Below the pieces are notes generated by a model that was given only the letters and a program-made list of their open reading frames with translations, ran no database searches and was not told the origin of the DNA. A DNA stretch of 64,000 nucleotides, from NCBI RefSeq assembly GCF_019204045.1, contig NZ_JAGSPC010000001.1:744001-808000 (forward strand), written 5' to 3'. Source of the stretch: Erythrobacter crassostreae (GTDB lineage Bacteria > Pseudomonadota > Alphaproteobacteria > Sphingomonadales > Sphingomonadaceae). Shown one piece after another: positions 30,667-35,084 of the stretch (position 1 is its first letter; every line of letters starts with the position of its first letter). The position numbers were made by a program, and so were the translations under genes.

Positions 30667-30693
30667 ATCAACCCAACCCGCAGAGAATTGACG

Positions 30694-30724
30694 AAGGGCG
30701 GCGCTCAAAGCGCCGCCCTTTTTT
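30694..30724 (+). terminator. Rho-independent terminator
   Basis: A perfect 12-bp stem AAGGGCGGCGCT / AGCGCCGCCCTT (30694-30705, 30709-30720) with a CAA loop is followed by T residues through 30724. It ends the small membrane-protein gene. The XRE gene converges from the other side and its stop lies 3 bases beyond. Confidence 0.93.
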
Positions 30725-30919: not shown

Positions 30920-31314
30920 CGGGCAACCCCTTTGAAACGGAACCAGTAATAACTGATCGCCCAGCCAAAAGTCAGAATGCCGATGATATTGTCGCTGGCC
31001 AGTTCAGGAAGACCAAATACCTTTTCACCGATCACCCAGCAAAGATTCACAAGCATGGTCGCGGCGAAGCCGACAAGCGCGGCATTGGCCATGATTTGGA
31101 ATGCATATTCCTCGCTGCACCGGCGGTCGATTGCCGATGCGGCGGCGACAGCCACATTGAATAGCAGGCCCAGTCCGCCGAGAATGAGTCCCTTGGCCCA
31201 AGGGGTCAAAGCCACCACCGCTTCGCGCGGTGCGTCGGCTTCGGCAATCATAACAAGCGATGCGAGCAGCGGTAATGCTATGAACCAGTCGAGTCTCTCG
31301 ATGTTCATTTTCAT
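30916..31314 (-). CDS. Integral membrane protein of unknown function (132 aa)
   Basis: 132 residues with about four hydrophobic segments (FIALPLLASLVMI, GLILGGLGLLFNVAVAAASA, IMANAALVGFAATMLVNLCWVI, IIGILTFGWAISYYWF). It starts at the ATG complementary to 31312-31314, overlapping the upstream stop by one base (TGATG); a second ATG is at 31308. It lies between the paralogous membrane proteins and the XRE gene, overlapping both neighbours. No family is recognised with confidence. Confidence 0.78.
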   Translation of the reverse strand: MKMNIERLDWFIALPLLASLVMIAEADAPREAVVALTPWAKGLILGGLGLLFNVAVAAASAIDRRCSEEYAFQIMANAALVGFAATMLVNLCWVIGEKVFGLPELASDNIIGILTFGWAISYYWFRFKGVAR

Positions 31315-31937
31315 CACACCGCACCCCACGTACCGTACTGGATGCGGTTCGCCACCGCTCCCACTCCGAGGCCAAAGAACCAGATAATCGCATACCAATA
31401 CGCATCGGCATGCACGACCAGATCGGCACTTTCGAGGTAGCCCCAAACGGATGCCGCGCTAAGCGAAAGAGCCGAGGCGATCAGCGTTTGACGCACAGTC
31501 AGCATCCTCAGAAACTCGTCTTCTTCCTCGACAATCAAACGCCCTACGGCCCAGAAAATGCCGCAGACTGCGAGGCCGGGAAGGACCGCCAGAATGTATT
31601 GCGCGACCAGAGGCACTTCGACTTCATCTTTCAGGAACGTCATCAGCGCGAAAGTCATCAAGTAAAGCGACGTCGAGATCGCCACCCGCTTTATATAGCG
31701 CTGCTGCGCGGTGCTTTTCGCAACGCAATTGTCGTCCATTGGCTGATTTTGAGCCGCTTTGTAGACCGCGATCATCAGGCTGGCGGGTGCGACCAACAAG
31801 ATCATGATTGCGCCCTTGTTCTCAACCGCGCCGCTGATCGCGAGCACCGCAACGGCAATGGTGCTGATGAACATCATGCCCATCCAGAACAGAGGGCCGC
31901 GGCCCAAAAAGCCGTTCTTTGCGGTTTGCGCCATCAT
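31314..31937 (-). CDS. Integral membrane protein, paralogue of its upstream neighbour (207 aa)
   Basis: 207 residues from the ATG complementary to 31935-31937 with AGGAGA upstream, overlapping the previous stop by 4 bases. About six membrane segments. The shared pattern with the preceding gene is clear by eye: RYIKRVA..., GIFWAVGRLIVEEEDEFLRMLTVRQTLIASALSLSAASVWGYLES here corresponds to RYTMRMM..., GMIWAMFRYLLDETDEYLRHRASLASLIGLGIVLCLGTIWGFLET there. The conserved acidic DEFLR/DEYLR cytoplasmic loop and the WGxLE helix end may be functional. Function unknown. Confidence 0.82.
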   Translation of the reverse strand: MMAQTAKNGFLGRGPLFWMGMMFISTIAVAVLAISGAVENKGAIMILLVAPASLMIAVYKAAQNQPMDDNCVAKSTAQQRYIKRVAISTSLYLMTFALMTFLKDEVEVPLVAQYILAVLPGLAVCGIFWAVGRLIVEEEDEFLRMLTVRQTLIASALSLSAASVWGYLESADLVVHADAYWYAIIWFFGLGVGAVANRIQYGTWGAV

Positions 31938-32542
31938 GATGGTTCTCCTGCACGTGTGTCTTGGCGGGCTAGAATGCCTTGGCCGATTGCAAGGCCCATT
32001 GCCCAGGCGGGCACGACCCACCAGGCGAAGATGTTCGGCACGAGACCAAAGGTTTCGAGAAAGCCCCAGATGGTGCCTAGGCACAGGACAATGCCAAGAC
32101 CGATCAACGATGCGAGGCTGGCGCGGTGGCGCAGATATTCGTCGGTCTCGTCCAGCAAATAGCGGAACATGGCCCAGATCATGCCGAGCGCCGGTACGGT
32201 GGGCAGAAGCGTTACCGCGTAAAGAAGCGGTGATCCTGCGGGCAGTTGACCATGCAACCAGATCGCGATCATCAGGCCAATGACATACGCAAAGCTCGCC
32301 GCCATCATCCGCATTGTATAGCGCGCGATGGCAGGGCTGCCGGTGACGGCGGGAAGGTCATTGTTTTTGATCGTGCGGATCATTTGGATCATAAGGAATG
32401 CCGGAACCACAAGCAGCGCCCCGGCCCAACCCCACGGCAACACACCCGCAAATGCCAGTGCGATGATTGGTGCGCCCAATCCGGTTGCCAGACCAAACCA
32501 GGGGCCGGGCGATTGCCATAGATTTTGCATGTGGGCGGTCAT
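31934..32542 (-). CDS. Integral membrane protein, first of a paralogous pair (202 aa)
   Basis: 202 residues from the ATG complementary to 32540-32542 (MTAHMQNLWQ), with AGAGG nine bases upstream; ATGs at 32551 and 32530 are alternatives. About six membrane segments (GLATGLGAPIIALAFAGVLPWGW, ALLVVPAFLMIQMI, and others), with DETDEYLRHR and WGFLETFGLVPNIFAWWVVPAWAMGLAIG near the end. It overlaps the small upstream gene and the downstream paralogue by 4 bases each. Function unknown. Confidence 0.82.
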   Translation of the reverse strand: MTAHMQNLWQSPGPWFGLATGLGAPIIALAFAGVLPWGWAGALLVVPAFLMIQMIRTIKNNDLPAVTGSPAIARYTMRMMAASFAYVIGLMIAIWLHGQLPAGSPLLYAVTLLPTVPALGMIWAMFRYLLDETDEYLRHRASLASLIGLGIVLCLGTIWGFLETFGLVPNIFAWWVVPAWAMGLAIGQGILARQDTRAGEPS

Positions 32543-32715
32543 TGCAGGCATCCTCTTACGCAGGGCGAGTCCGCTTGAAGCGAGCCCCATGCTGCACCGC
32601 TAAGGCCCGAAACGATGCCGAAGCTGGCGGCGTTGTTAAGACCATAAGATACGCAGATCAGCGCAGCGGCAATAATGATGGCCGCCCAGATCAAAGCTTG
32701 TGTGTTGCGTGTCAT
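32539..32715 (-). CDS. Small single-span membrane protein, first gene of the XRE operon (58 aa)
   Basis: 58 residues from the ATG complementary to 32713-32715, with GGGAG nine bases upstream. One hydrophobic span (ALIWAAIIIAAALICVSYGL) is followed by a Gly/Ser-rich segment and a Cys-containing tail (SPCVRGCLQ). The stop overlaps the next start (ATGA). It is the promoter-proximal gene of the five-gene operon. Confidence 0.68.
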   Translation of the reverse strand: MTRNTQALIWAAIIIAAALICVSYGLNNAASFGIVSGLSGAAWGSLQADSPCVRGCLQ

Positions 32716-32738
32716 TAGGAAAGCTCCCTTTCTGTTAT

Positions 32739-32817
32739 GGAAAGCATACTTGTCATCGATTCGCCCCAATGTCAAGTACACTTTCCAAAGTGGAGCGGTT
32801 GCTTTCCTTTGTGGCGC
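32739..32817. promoter_or_regulatory. Dyad and 21-bp-spaced repeats in the divergent control region of the XRE operon and thrS
   Basis: An imperfect inverted repeat (15 of 18 positions) has arms GGAAAGCATACTTGTCAT (32739-32756) and ATGTCAAGTACACTTTCC (32769-32786), 12 bases apart. The right arm overlaps a minus-strand TTGACA (-35-like, complement of 32770-32775). A palindrome CACTTTCCAAAGTG lies at 32779-32792. The unit CTTTCCnnnGTGGnGC occurs at 32781-32796 and 32802-32817, exactly 21 bases (two helical turns) apart. These look like binding sites for a dimeric regulator such as the XRE protein at the end of the operon; that link is inferred. Confidence 0.6.
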
Positions 32818-32829
32818 GCGAAGGGTGAC

Positions 32830-32928
32830 ATGCTGCTTACGCAACCCTATCTCTGTTCGATGGCAAACCCGCTCACCACCACTACGACCACCACCCCGGA
32901 TTTCCGGGGTCGGGTGTGTGTGGGTTGA
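32830..32928 (+). CDS. Threonine-rich leader peptide of thrS (32 aa)
   Basis: ATG at 32830 is preceded by GAAGGG four bases away. An in-frame ATG at 32860 gives a 22-residue version without SD. Codons 16-22 (32875-32895) are seven consecutive threonine codons (ACC ACC ACT ACG ACC ACC ACC); the stop is TGA at 32926-32928. Seven identical residues that match the amino acid charged by the downstream synthetase are the hallmark of a leader peptide whose translation senses charged tRNA-Thr. The peptide overlaps the first hairpin of the attenuator. Absence of a uridine tract leaves the exact mechanism open, but the coding pattern is direct observation. Confidence 0.8.
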   Translation: MLLTQPYLCSMANPLTTTTTTTPDFRGRVCVG

Positions 32929-32993
32929 TCAAATCAGCCTGCCGCCCCCGGCTCTGGCCGCTTTGGGGCGGCGCGGCGGCCTCCCAAATCCGG
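32893..32993 (+). promoter_or_regulatory. Attenuator-like alternative hairpins in the thrS leader
   Basis: Segment 1:2 is a perfect hairpin, ACCCCGGA (32893-32900) with TCCGGGGT (32903-32910), starting at the last Thr codon. Segment 3:4 is GCCGCCCC (32941-32948) with GGGGCGGC (32965-32972), with CGGC/GCCG nested inside. Segment 2:3 is mutually exclusive with both: CCGGGGTCGG (32904-32913) pairs with CCGCCCCCGG (32942-32951) with one mismatch. CCGGATTT (32896-32903) also has a perfect complement AAATCCGG at 32986-32993. A ribosome held at the Thr codons would block segment 1, favour 2:3 and dissolve 3:4. No T run follows 3:4, so termination may be factor-dependent. Confidence 0.65.
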
Positions 32994-33083
32994 TAAATTG
33001 TACAAACGCCGCTTCAAGCGCACGCCTTGCTGTGCCAAAGGCCCATAAAAGCAAGACAACGCGCAAACCAATTTGGATAGAAG

Positions 33084-35084
33084 ATGACCGAACTGCTCAA
33101 AATCAGCCTTCCCGATGGTTCCGTCCGCGAAATGGAACCGGGCAGCACACCGTATGATGTTGCTGCAGCGATTGGCCCAGGCCTAGCCAAGGCTGCGCTT
33201 GCTGCTCGCGTGAACGGTGAAGTTCGCGATCTTGGCCGTCCATTCGAGGGCGACAGCGAACTCGCTTTGATCACGTCGAAAGACGAGGAAGACGCGCTCG
33301 AACTGGCGCGGCATGATTTTGCACACGTCCTCGCTGAGGCGGTGCAGGCGCTGTACCCCGGCACTCAGATCACCTTCGGTCCCGCGACCGATGACGGGTT
33401 TTATTATGACGTGATGGCGCCGGCCAGCCGCGAACCGTTCAGCAGCGAAGACCTGCCTGATATCGAAGCGAAGATGCGCGAAATCATCAAGGCAGACAAG
33501 CCGCTGCGCCGCGAGGCATGGTCACGCCAGCAATTGATCGAAAAGTGGGAATTCGAAGGCGAGGCGTTCAAGGCTGAATGGGCCAAGGAACTGCCCGAGA
33601 ACGAAGAGCTGACGGTCTATTGGTCGGGTGATGACTGGCTTGATATGTGCCGAGGCCCGCACCTGCCCTCCACCGGAAAACTGGACCCGCAGGCGTTCAA
33701 GCTGATGCGGGTTGCGGGCGCATACTGGCGCGGTGATCAGGCGAACGCGCAGCTGACGCGCATTTACGGCACCGGCTGGCTCAACAAGAAGCAGCTCAAC
33801 CAGCATTTGATGCGGCTTGAAGAAGCCGCCAAGCGCGATCACCGCAAGCTTGGCCGCGAGATGGACCTGTTCCACCTTTCCGATGTCGCGCATGGCAGCG
33901 TGTTCTGGCATCCCAAAGGCTACCGCATCTGGCGCGAGCTTGAGAGCTATATGCGCCGTAAGATGGATGGCAGCGGATACCGCGAGATCAAAACGCCGCA
34001 AGTAATGGATGCGCGCCAGTGGGAGCAATCCGGTCACTGGGGCAAGTACCGCGAAAACATGTTTGTGATCCCGGACGAAGTGCCAAACACCGAAGATGAT
34101 GGTCCCGTTATCAGCGGCGAAGCCGACTGGATGGCGCTAAAGCCGATGAACTGCCCCGCGCATGTTCTCGTCTTCAAACAAGGCATCACGTCCTATCGCG
34201 ATCTGCCGATCCGCCTCGGCGAGATGGGCTGCTGTCACCGCAATGAACCGCACGGTGCGCTGCACGGATTGATGCGCGTGCGTCAATTCACGCAGGATGA
34301 CGCGCATATCTTCTGCACCGAAAGCCAAGTGGTCGAGGAAGTGCGCAAATTCTGTGAGATGGCAGACGCCGTCTATCAGGACTTCGGTTTCAAATACGAA
34401 ATCAAACTCGCCACGCGGCCTGAGCAGCGCTTTGGCTCCGATGCAGATTGGGACAAGGCCGAGCAGGAATTGCGCGATGCCGTGGCCGAAGCGGGCATGG
34501 CGACCGAAGAGTTTGGCTGGGAAGAATTGCCGGGCGAAGGCGCGTTCTATGCGCCGAAGCTCGAATGGCATTTGACCGATGCGATTGGCCGGACATGGCA
34601 GGTCGGCACGATCCAGTCGGACCGAGTGCTGCCCGAACGTCTGGATGCGACCTATATTGGCGAGGACGGCGGCAAACACCGCCCTGTCATGCTGCACCGT
34701 GCGATCTTTGGGTCATACGAGCGCTTTATCGGCATTCTGATCGAGCATTATGCAGGCCGTCTTCCTGTCTGGCTTTCACCGGTTCAGGCGGTTGTCGCAC
34801 CAATCGTGTCGGACATTGATGGCTACGCTGAAAAAGTCGAAGCGACGCTGATGGCCGCCGGTCTTCGTGTGAAGAGCGATCTTCGCAATGAGAAGATCAA
34901 CTACAAGGTGCGCGAACACAGTCTCGCGAAGGTTCCGCATATCCTTGTCGTCGGCAAACGCGAGGAAGAAGAAGGTAAGGTCACGATGCGGACGCTGGGC
35001 GAGAAGGATCAGAAGGTTCTGACGCTGGATGAGGCGGTGGCGTTTCTGAACGCAGAAGCCACTCCGCCTGACATGCGCGGCTAG
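33084..35084 (+). CDS. thrS: Threonyl-tRNA synthetase
   Basis: 666 residues, full length. It attaches threonine to tRNA-Thr in the cytoplasm. An N-terminal TGS domain (ISLPDGSVREMEPGSTPYDVA) is followed by the editing/SAD domain (HDFAHVLAEAVQALYPG; HLPSTGKL), the class II catalytic core with the zinc Cys in LKPMNCPAHVLVFK, motif 2 MGCCHRNEPHGALHGLMRVRQFTQDDAHIFC and motif 3 HRAIFGSYERFIGILIEH, and the anticodon-binding domain at the C-terminus. ATAGAAG precedes the ATG. The 5' region carries a Thr-codon leader and alternative hairpins, suggesting control by threonyl-tRNA levels. tauE-like 35103 follows by 18 bases. Confidence 0.97.
   Translation: MTELLKISLPDGSVREMEPGSTPYDVAAAIGPGLAKAALAARVNGEVRDLGRPFEGDSELALITSKDEEDALELARHDFAHVLAEAVQALYPGTQITFGPATDDGFYYDVMAPASREPFSSEDLPDIEAKMREIIKADKPLRREAWSRQQLIEKWEFEGEAFKAEWAKELPENEELTVYWSGDDWLDMCRGPHLPSTGKLDPQAFKLMRVAGAYWRGDQANAQLTRIYGTGWLNKKQLNQHLMRLEEAAKRDHRKLGREMDLFHLSDVAHGSVFWHPKGYRIWRELESYMRRKMDGSGYREIKTPQVMDARQWEQSGHWGKYRENMFVIPDEVPNTEDDGPVISGEADWMALKPMNCPAHVLVFKQGITSYRDLPIRLGEMGCCHRNEPHGALHGLMRVRQFTQDDAHIFCTESQVVEEVRKFCEMADAVYQDFGFKYEIKLATRPEQRFGSDADWDKAEQELRDAVAEAGMATEEFGWEELPGEGAFYAPKLEWHLTDAIGRTWQVGTIQSDRVLPERLDATYIGEDGGKHRPVMLHRAIFGSYERFIGILIEHYAGRLPVWLSPVQAVVAPIVSDIDGYAEKVEATLMAAGLRVKSDLRNEKINYKVREHSLAKVPHILVVGKREEEEGKVTMRTLGEKDQKVLTLDEAVAFLNAEATPPDMRG

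Follow-up and report, generated by a model that had tools for sequence, protein, structure and literature searches.

The leaders of the enterobacterial thrABC, his and pheST operons, the last with pheM, carry their control codons in segment 1 of the leader RNA and form the mutually exclusive helices 1:2, 2:3 and 3:4; with pheST of E. coli and its pheM leader, a synthetase operon is under this type of control. The gene for threonyl-tRNA synthetase, thrS, is subject to translational autorepression in E. coli, where ThrRS binds an operator of tRNA-like arms next to the start codon, and to T-boxes in Firmicutes. In Rhodobacterales, attenuation has been predicted for the uORFC-8-2 motif before cysS (PMC8632094). 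Streptomyces are described as having known or predicted peptide leaders ahead of leuS, trpS, alaS and thrS, the last with two Thr codons (PMC8079986, PMC1262725); this is the thrL leader proposed before thrS of Streptomyces lividans (PMC8079986). In Sinorhizobium meliloti, trpL is described as a leaderless leader mRNA, and a trans action is reported for rnTrpL and peTrpL (PMC10117765).

Here, we analyse the region upstream of thrS in a 64,000-nt stretch of the Erythrobacter crassostreae genome (the window, to which all coordinates refer unless a locus is named). Based on comparison with relatives, thrS is very probably controlled by a ribosome-mediated attenuator that tunes its expression to the supply of charged threonyl-tRNA. 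Among open-licence papers in PMC, we found no earlier report of a thrS leader with a Thr run in alphaproteobacteria; outside this scope lies Lopatovskaya et al. 2010, which reportedly treats the attenuation of amino acid and aminoacyl-tRNA operons and is the likeliest place of an earlier prediction.

The leader ORF and its promoter-like elements

The regulated gene, thrS (33084-35084, + strand), encodes threonyl-tRNA synthetase with the Pfam domains TGS, tRNA_SAD, tRNA-synt_2b and HGTP_anticodon. An open frame leads via ATG 32830 to a stop codon at 32926-32928, 155 nt 5' of thrS, which agrees with the distance of about 155 bases to thrS given in an initial annotation of this DNA. The seven consecutive Thr codons that this annotation reported at 32875-32895 on the + strand are present as claimed (ACC ACC ACT ACG ACC ACC ACC) and would serve as control codons. 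A run of seven such codons is found once in the window, in 0 of 100 shuffles, and nowhere else in the 2.59 Mb assembly. Folding of the 276-nt leader region is more stable than in most shuffled versions, 3/200 of which do as well (z-score -2.58). A search of 32000-33500 with Rfam covariance models, T-box included, gave nothing up to E 1, and a known Rfam element was rejected for the leader on this basis.

The initial annotation had further assigned the Thr run to a 32-codon ORF with its own SD. Its frame, stop and Thr run stand, but its start does not: the ATG kept in relatives is that at 32860, which gives a 22-codon leader ORF, thrL (32860-32928, + strand; MANPLTTTTTTTPDFRGRVCVG), whose start codon, Thr run, RG(R) and placement of the stop all recur in relatives. 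The SD-like GAAGGGTGAC and ATG 32830 lie on a promoter-like -35 box, and an SD-like 4-mer precedes the kept ATG in merely 3/91 leaders; the 32-codon ORF with SD was therefore rejected.

The promoter-like element, P1 (32825-32852, + strand), consists of GTGACA (32825-32830) and CTATCT (32847-32852) separated by 16 nt, and ends 7 nt before the leader ATG. The general pattern ahead of this ATG is TGAC-N16/17-CTATCT or alike, with the end of a -10-like box 6-8 nt ahead of it in 72/91 leaders. [CT]TA is found at -16 to -11 in 71/91 leaders, compared to 2-13 at five more upstream positions taken as controls, and TGA or TTG at -39 to -32 in 75/91, compared to 8-25 at control positions. A generic sigma-70 scan returned nothing at P1. 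The kept ATG has no SD, and the promoter-like boxes end 7 nt before it; most simply, then, the mRNA would be leaderless and begin at the leader AUG, and thrL would probably be translated from it.

A second promoter-like element of fixed geometry, P2 (33012-33040, + strand), is formed by CTTCAA and CCAAAG, 17 nt apart. Across leaders, P2 appears as a CTT...CCATGG-like pair, for which 17 nt was the best-scoring among spacers of 16, 17 and 18 nt in 88/92 leaders. The best candidate stem at P2 co-varies poorly (84 leaders); a GCGCGCC/GGCGCG block near thrS was rejected as an RNA structure on account of poor co-variation and fixed spacing. P2-like elements, identified by eye or by score and without a shuffled control, also occur in leader-less relatives, for example in L007, L046, L053 and L070. 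We infer that P2 is the older thrS promoter, upstream of which P1, thrL and the attenuator were added.

Further features lie in the vicinity. Upstream of the leader, at 32717-32808, there is a 40-nt imperfect inverted repeat (73%), perhaps the operator of a divergent gene. Two ORFs that by eye resemble membrane proteins occupy 31314-32590 on the - strand, with transcription directed away from thrS; the one of 218 aa had no match in a Pfam scan. By eye, a GGAAAG..CTTTCC-like sequence akin to the inverted repeat stands upstream of thrS in L007, L014 and L063.

Thr codons and distribution of the leader in relatives

Upstream DNA was collected for part of the thrS matches from protein searches. 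A simple Thr-run rule flagged 85/223 thrS-upstream loci, 0/29 in the order's remaining families (L164-L192) and 1/57 outside the order (26 in L078-L103, 31 in L193-L223); this single locus, L197, was judged to carry its run by chance. Looser scoring outside the family brought up two Thr-rich ORFs that lack the hairpins and whose genomes have no model match: in L207, 7 of 10 codons encode Thr and the stop is at -247; in L182, 6 of 10 do so and it is at -375. From the pool of flagged loci, which comprised the 85/223 and more among 80 further loci, L055, L070, L118, L130, L135, L162, L197 and L243 were dropped because they were false or had diverged too far, and L025 and L227 for their length, leaving 92 distinct leaders; leaders of the L118/L243 and L131 kinds may be true ones.

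Typical leader peptides are MAKLLTTTTTTTTSDIRGRLVAA and MTQARITTTTTTTPGFRGRAVAI, and most leaders have 5-9 Thr within 10 codons. Among 93 distinct leaders, 67-90 have Thr at codons -17 to -11, counted from the stop. The initial annotation had suggested looking for conserved Thr codons upstream of thrS in relatives, and Thr is indeed kept there while the third base varies, as at codon -15 (T 21, C 29, A 10, G 20). The use of all four third bases at Thr codons indicates conservation of the amino acid rather than of the RNA. Codon -11, the last for Thr, reads ACC in 71/79 leaders, because pairing of segment 1, described below, demands ACC.

To follow the leader as an RNA, we used a covariance model, R1, built on an alignment (A1) of 86/92 leaders, the window's own included; it is without L151, L282, L288 and L302 (divergent) and L012 and L018 (close to other rows). 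As the best 14-23 candidates per genome were scored in R1 searches, with filters that lose weak matches, absences are to be understood as absences of strong matches. In the own genome (best 150 of 869 candidates), R1 had one clear match, at the leader itself (E 7e-16; next 1.35). Among the best 14-23 candidates of each genome, 52/149 family genomes, many of these 149 being sources of the R1 alignment, had a match at E < 1e-5, and the remaining family matches up to E 0.1 were at E 0.008 or more. All 52 matches lie upstream of thrS by coordinates, 49 of them directly and 3 about 560-580 nt up. Under the same candidate selection, 35/147 genomes of the order matched at E <= 0.01, all of them Sphingomonadaceae, with none at this threshold in 61 genomes of the order's other families. 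None of 237 class genomes outside the family had a match below E 0.02 among its best 14-23 candidates; seven had matches at E 0.024-0.074, away from thrS where comparable.

Locus by locus, R1 matched 64/77 of L001-L077 and, up to E 0.05, 24/80 named loci, L282 weakly (E 0.013). These 24 include Erythrobacter, Porphyrobacter, Altererythrobacter, Pelagerythrobacter, Parerythrobacter, Allopontixanthobacter and Croceicoccus, joined by four Novosphingobium, Blastomonas natatoria, a single Sphingopyxis, a single Sphingorhabdus and three Sphingomonas records. On a tree of 165 thrS proteins, 88 of them with leader and the rows selected as best matches rather than drawn at random, the leader is found in 79/90 rows of the clade of the named Erythrobacter-type genera and in 9/67 of the rest of the family; the fewest changes of leader state are 18, in which gain and loss are not separable. 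We then extended the comparison by 20 loci, comprising nine chosen for their R1 match, one known to be leader-less (L318, genome G283) and ten unseen genus members. Each of the ten blind-chosen genus members had both a Thr-run peptide and an R1 match, at E 8e-15 or better; both were also present in all nine R1-chosen loci and absent in L318. These 19 extra matches are 70-97% identical to their nearest training row, none of them fully.

The link to thrS persists where the gene order differs. In genomes G066, G154 and G114, the leader is followed by a 168-codon ORF and then by thrS, so the leader still opens the unit. This ORF (MRYYIDTEFNGT..; L034 3551-4057 on the - strand, L309 287-793, L310 about 286-789) looks exonuclease-like by eye; its L034 copy had no Pfam match.

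Some relatives have a reduced leader or none. L025 (3496-3578) and L227 (1906-1988), whose ThrRS are identical, represent a natural variant in which the leader with its Thr run stops 50 nt short of thrS and lacks most of segments 3-7, while a P2-like -10 end is kept. L005, L007, L014 and L063 are close relatives from the window's own genus with neither leader nor model match; L007, L014 and L063 group on the thrS tree as if the leader had been lost once there.

Two sets of helices and their co-variation

All segments of the putative switch lie on the + strand. Segment 1 (CCCCGG, 32894-32899) overlaps the last Thr codon and pairs with segment 2 (CCGGGGTCGG, 32904-32913), which can pair with segment 3 instead. 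Segment 3 (GCCGCCCCCGG, 32941-32951) has two possible partners, segment 2 (through 32942-32951) and segment 4 (through 32941-32948), and so has segment 4 (TTTGGGGCGGC, 32962-32972), which pairs with segment 3 through 32965-32972 or with segment 5 (CCTCCCAAA, 32980-32988) through 32962-32967. Segment 6 (GCGGCG, 32973-32978), located inside the loop of helix 4:5, pairs with segment 7 (CGCCGC, 33007-33012). The three hairpins of the initial annotation are borne out as inverted repeats, 32904-32913 with 32942-32951 (9/10 pairs), 32941-32948 with 32965-32972 (8/8) and 32893-32900 with 32903-32910 (8/8), and belong to five helices in all, of which 4:5 and 6:7 lie further 3'. Segment 3 can take part in either 2:3 or 3:4, segment 4 in either 3:4 or 4:5, and segment 6 is in the loop of 4:5, so that these helices fall into two mutually exclusive sets, 1:2 + 3:4 + 6:7 and 2:3 + 4:5.

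Both sets bear compensatory changes in the 86 leaders of A1. In the set 1:2 + 3:4 + 6:7, 90.6% of cells are paired and 109 cells are changed on both sides, compared to 50.2 in shuffled versions (reached in 0/500) and 10-38 in slid ones; its 29 pair types are no excess over the shuffled 27.1 (86/500 reach it). The set 2:3 + 4:5 is paired in 88.9%, with 44 both-sides-changed cells against 10.5 shuffled (0/500) and 5-26 slid, and has 8 pairs with both sides changed against 4.6 (10/500), a count for which two slid versions reach 9. One of the 20 pairs in the latter test (columns 124/142) is a template mismatch, unpaired in 81 leaders, and was omitted from 4:5 in the per-helix test below. Pair swaps include G-C for A-U in 3:4 (46/23), C-G for U-A in 6:7 (56/29), and C-G for G-C (75/6) and U-A for G-C (47/11) in 4:5.

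A stricter, tree-aware test of all pairs, on a tree derived from the alignment itself (90/92 leaders, without L151 and L282), returned no significant pair, with a best E of 2.55; the helix pairs took ranks 2, 6, 8, 9 and 15 of 20,706. A tree-aware test summed per helix and confined to the proposed helices came after it, and counted pair-keeping co-changes: 4 in 1:2 (0.6 expected; reached by 1/400 nulls), 5 in 3:4 (1.0; 3/400), 13 in 6:7 (1.7; 0/400), 4 in 2:3 (0.5; 0/400) and 11 in 4:5 (1.7; 0/400), for helices proposed from the same sequences as tested and on trees built from the same alignments. The co-varying stems that the initial annotation had envisaged in relatives are thus seen as compensatory changes in five helices, together with a non-significant all-pairs test. 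Judged by this co-variation, both exclusive sets are kept by selection.

The geometry of the leader matches that of a ribosome-operated switch. The stop codon starts 12 nt after segment 2 in 81/86 leaders, and segment 3 starts a median of 9 nt beyond the stop codon (86 leaders). Assuming a ribosome footprint of usual size, a ribosome in the later Thr codons would cover segment 1 and leave segment 2 free; one that terminates at the stop would mask segment 2 at its 3' side, with segment 3 just free. Folding of the window's leader under these masks gave 9.4 expected pairs of 2:3 in the stalled state against 0.0 at the stop, and 1.7 against 7.0 pairs of 3:4. Across 86 leaders, 2:3 gained more than one pair in 69 in the stalled state, and 3:4 was lowered in 63. 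Equilibrium folding did not show the hand-over to 4:5 and 6:7 that an attenuator of this kind would need: 4:5 was raised in only 20/86 leaders, and 6:7 had no consistent direction, being lowered in 25 and raised in 19.

Proposed mechanism, output and comparison with known systems

The peptide-leader attenuation of thrS proposed in the initial annotation gains support from the Thr run and from the compensatory changes in relatives. Comparison between genomes brings out the Thr codons, the fixed stop position, the co-varying five helices and the link to thrS; the leaderless start, the ribosome positions, the relay from 4:5 to 6:7 and P2 would complete the picture in the following way. Transcription would start from P1, at or a few nt from ATG 32860, with a ribosome trailing RNA polymerase on the 22-codon ORF. 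When Thr-tRNA is plentiful, the ribosome would arrive at the stop, cover segment 2 in part and leave segment 3 exposed, allowing 3:4 to form and leaving segment 6 free to pair with 7 (OFF state). When Thr-tRNA is short, the ribosome would stall in the Thr run and cover segment 1, whereupon segment 2 would pair with 3, segment 4 would be left for 5, and transcription would read through to thrS (ON state); 6:7 would be blocked in this state because segment 6 lies in the loop of 4:5. P2 would provide basal thrS mRNA that bypasses the switch. Against an attenuator we count that such a P2 would bypass it, that many Sphingomonadaceae do without the leader, that a U tract is missing, that folding did not show the relay and that the all-pairs test was not significant. 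The complete scheme, a terminator-less attenuator with leaderless ORF, the helix chain 1:2/2:3, 3:4/4:5 and 4:5/6:7, a stop without U tract, and basal expression from P2, has in our estimate slightly less than an even chance of being correct in all its parts.

As stated in the initial annotation, there is no U tract after 3:4, neither in the window nor in relatives, where the following 10 nt contain at most 4 U in 86/86 leaders; 5-6 U follow 6:7 in 3/86. There are no terminator-like sites in 32600-33200, and, with the U tract missing as well, an intrinsic terminator was rejected for the window's leader. Elsewhere in the window, at 30693-30721, 13 pairs followed by TTTGTTT constitute a strong canonical intrinsic terminator, so U-tract terminators do occur in the E. 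crassostreae genome.

The same sensor might have a translational output, in which the alternative folds open and close the ribosome-binding site of thrS. The initial annotation had allowed for such a mode, which would accord with the absent U tract and with the description of peptide leaders without obvious terminators (PMC1262725), but it is not favoured by folding: mean accessibility of thrS from -18 to +6 is 0.47 in both modelled states, with a mean difference of -0.006 (86 leaders). Opening and closing of the start site was rejected as the main output on these grounds. Considering also that the window's switch ends 71 nt ahead of the thrS start codon and that another ORF intervenes between leader and thrS in three genomes, we regard a translational output as unlikely. 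With neither a U tract nor a change at the thrS start site, we favour, on indirect grounds, Rho-dependent or other non-canonical termination. In its Rho version, a variant of the attenuator with the same sensor, ribosome-free leader RNA would be captured in the fed state and the P1 transcript would end before or early in thrS, while a stalled ribosome together with 2:3 would prevent capture. The lack of a detectable intrinsic terminator speaks for this version, as does a C content of 0.344 versus 0.311 G between stop and thrS (91 leaders), and Rho has been suggested for mycobacterial cys leaders (PMC1262725). Yet the C excess is small, the RNA is heavily structured in both states, and the kept helices 3:4 and 6:7 would be left without a clear job, which makes the Rho version a real contender that still falls short of being probable.

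Two further explanations depart from the attenuator altogether or add to it. A small, probably leaderless leader mRNA with a kept peptide resembles the rnTrpL/peTrpL case, and leader RNA or peptide could act in trans, besides or instead of controlling thrS; given that pairing of segment 2 accounts for the RG(R) end, and that the Thr run and the thrS link fit control in cis, we consider this very improbable. The ORF might, finally, be a chance product of low complexity in a GC-rich spacer and no regulator at all, as could be suspected from the absence of the leader in many relatives and from the hairpin-less Thr-rich ORFs that arise by chance elsewhere (L207, L182). Conservation and co-variation contradict this notion, to which we attach next to no credence.

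The ribosome-mediated attenuator that we prefer is of a known kind, peptide-leader control of synthetase genes; what appears new about it, judged by open-licence papers in PMC, is the Thr run before thrS in alphaproteobacteria, the five helices in two exclusive sets and the missing U tract. Enterobacterial leaders combine an SD-led ORF with a U-tract intrinsic terminator, neither of which was found in the thrS leader. The initial annotation had called peptide-leader control a different solution for thrS. The novelty is smaller than supposed, as attenuation of cysS has been predicted in alphaproteobacteria and a leader of thrS proposed in S. lividans. With uORFC-8-2, the thrS leader shares its occurrence in Alphaproteobacteria and a short ORF with cognate codons ahead of a synthetase gene; the motif is, however, described with two Cys codons, two prominent stems and a U run in all cases (PMC8632094), compared to mostly 5-9 Thr in 10 codons, five helices and no U tract here. 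The S. lividans thrL is similar in its Thr codons and in its leaderless transcript, which is probable for the thrS leader too, with no U-rich stretch reported in the account of it, and differs in having two Thr codons and one hairpin (PMC8079986). S. meliloti trpL has a leaderless leader mRNA in an alphaproteobacterium, as is probable here, but serves another amino acid and gene, and the RNA of its attenuator is described as functioning as an sRNA (PMC10117765). Mycobacterial cys leaders resemble the thrS leader as leader peptides without an obvious terminator, for which Rho was suggested, and are described as lacking conserved hairpins (PMC1262725), where the thrS leader has five co-varying helices.

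For thrS, ribosome-mediated sensing would thus join translational autorepression and T-boxes. The presence and absence of the leader within one family, together with the L025/L227 variant, makes comparison between relatives possible, and, because it has no U tract, the thrS leader offers a clear test case for peptide-leader control in GC-rich bacteria.
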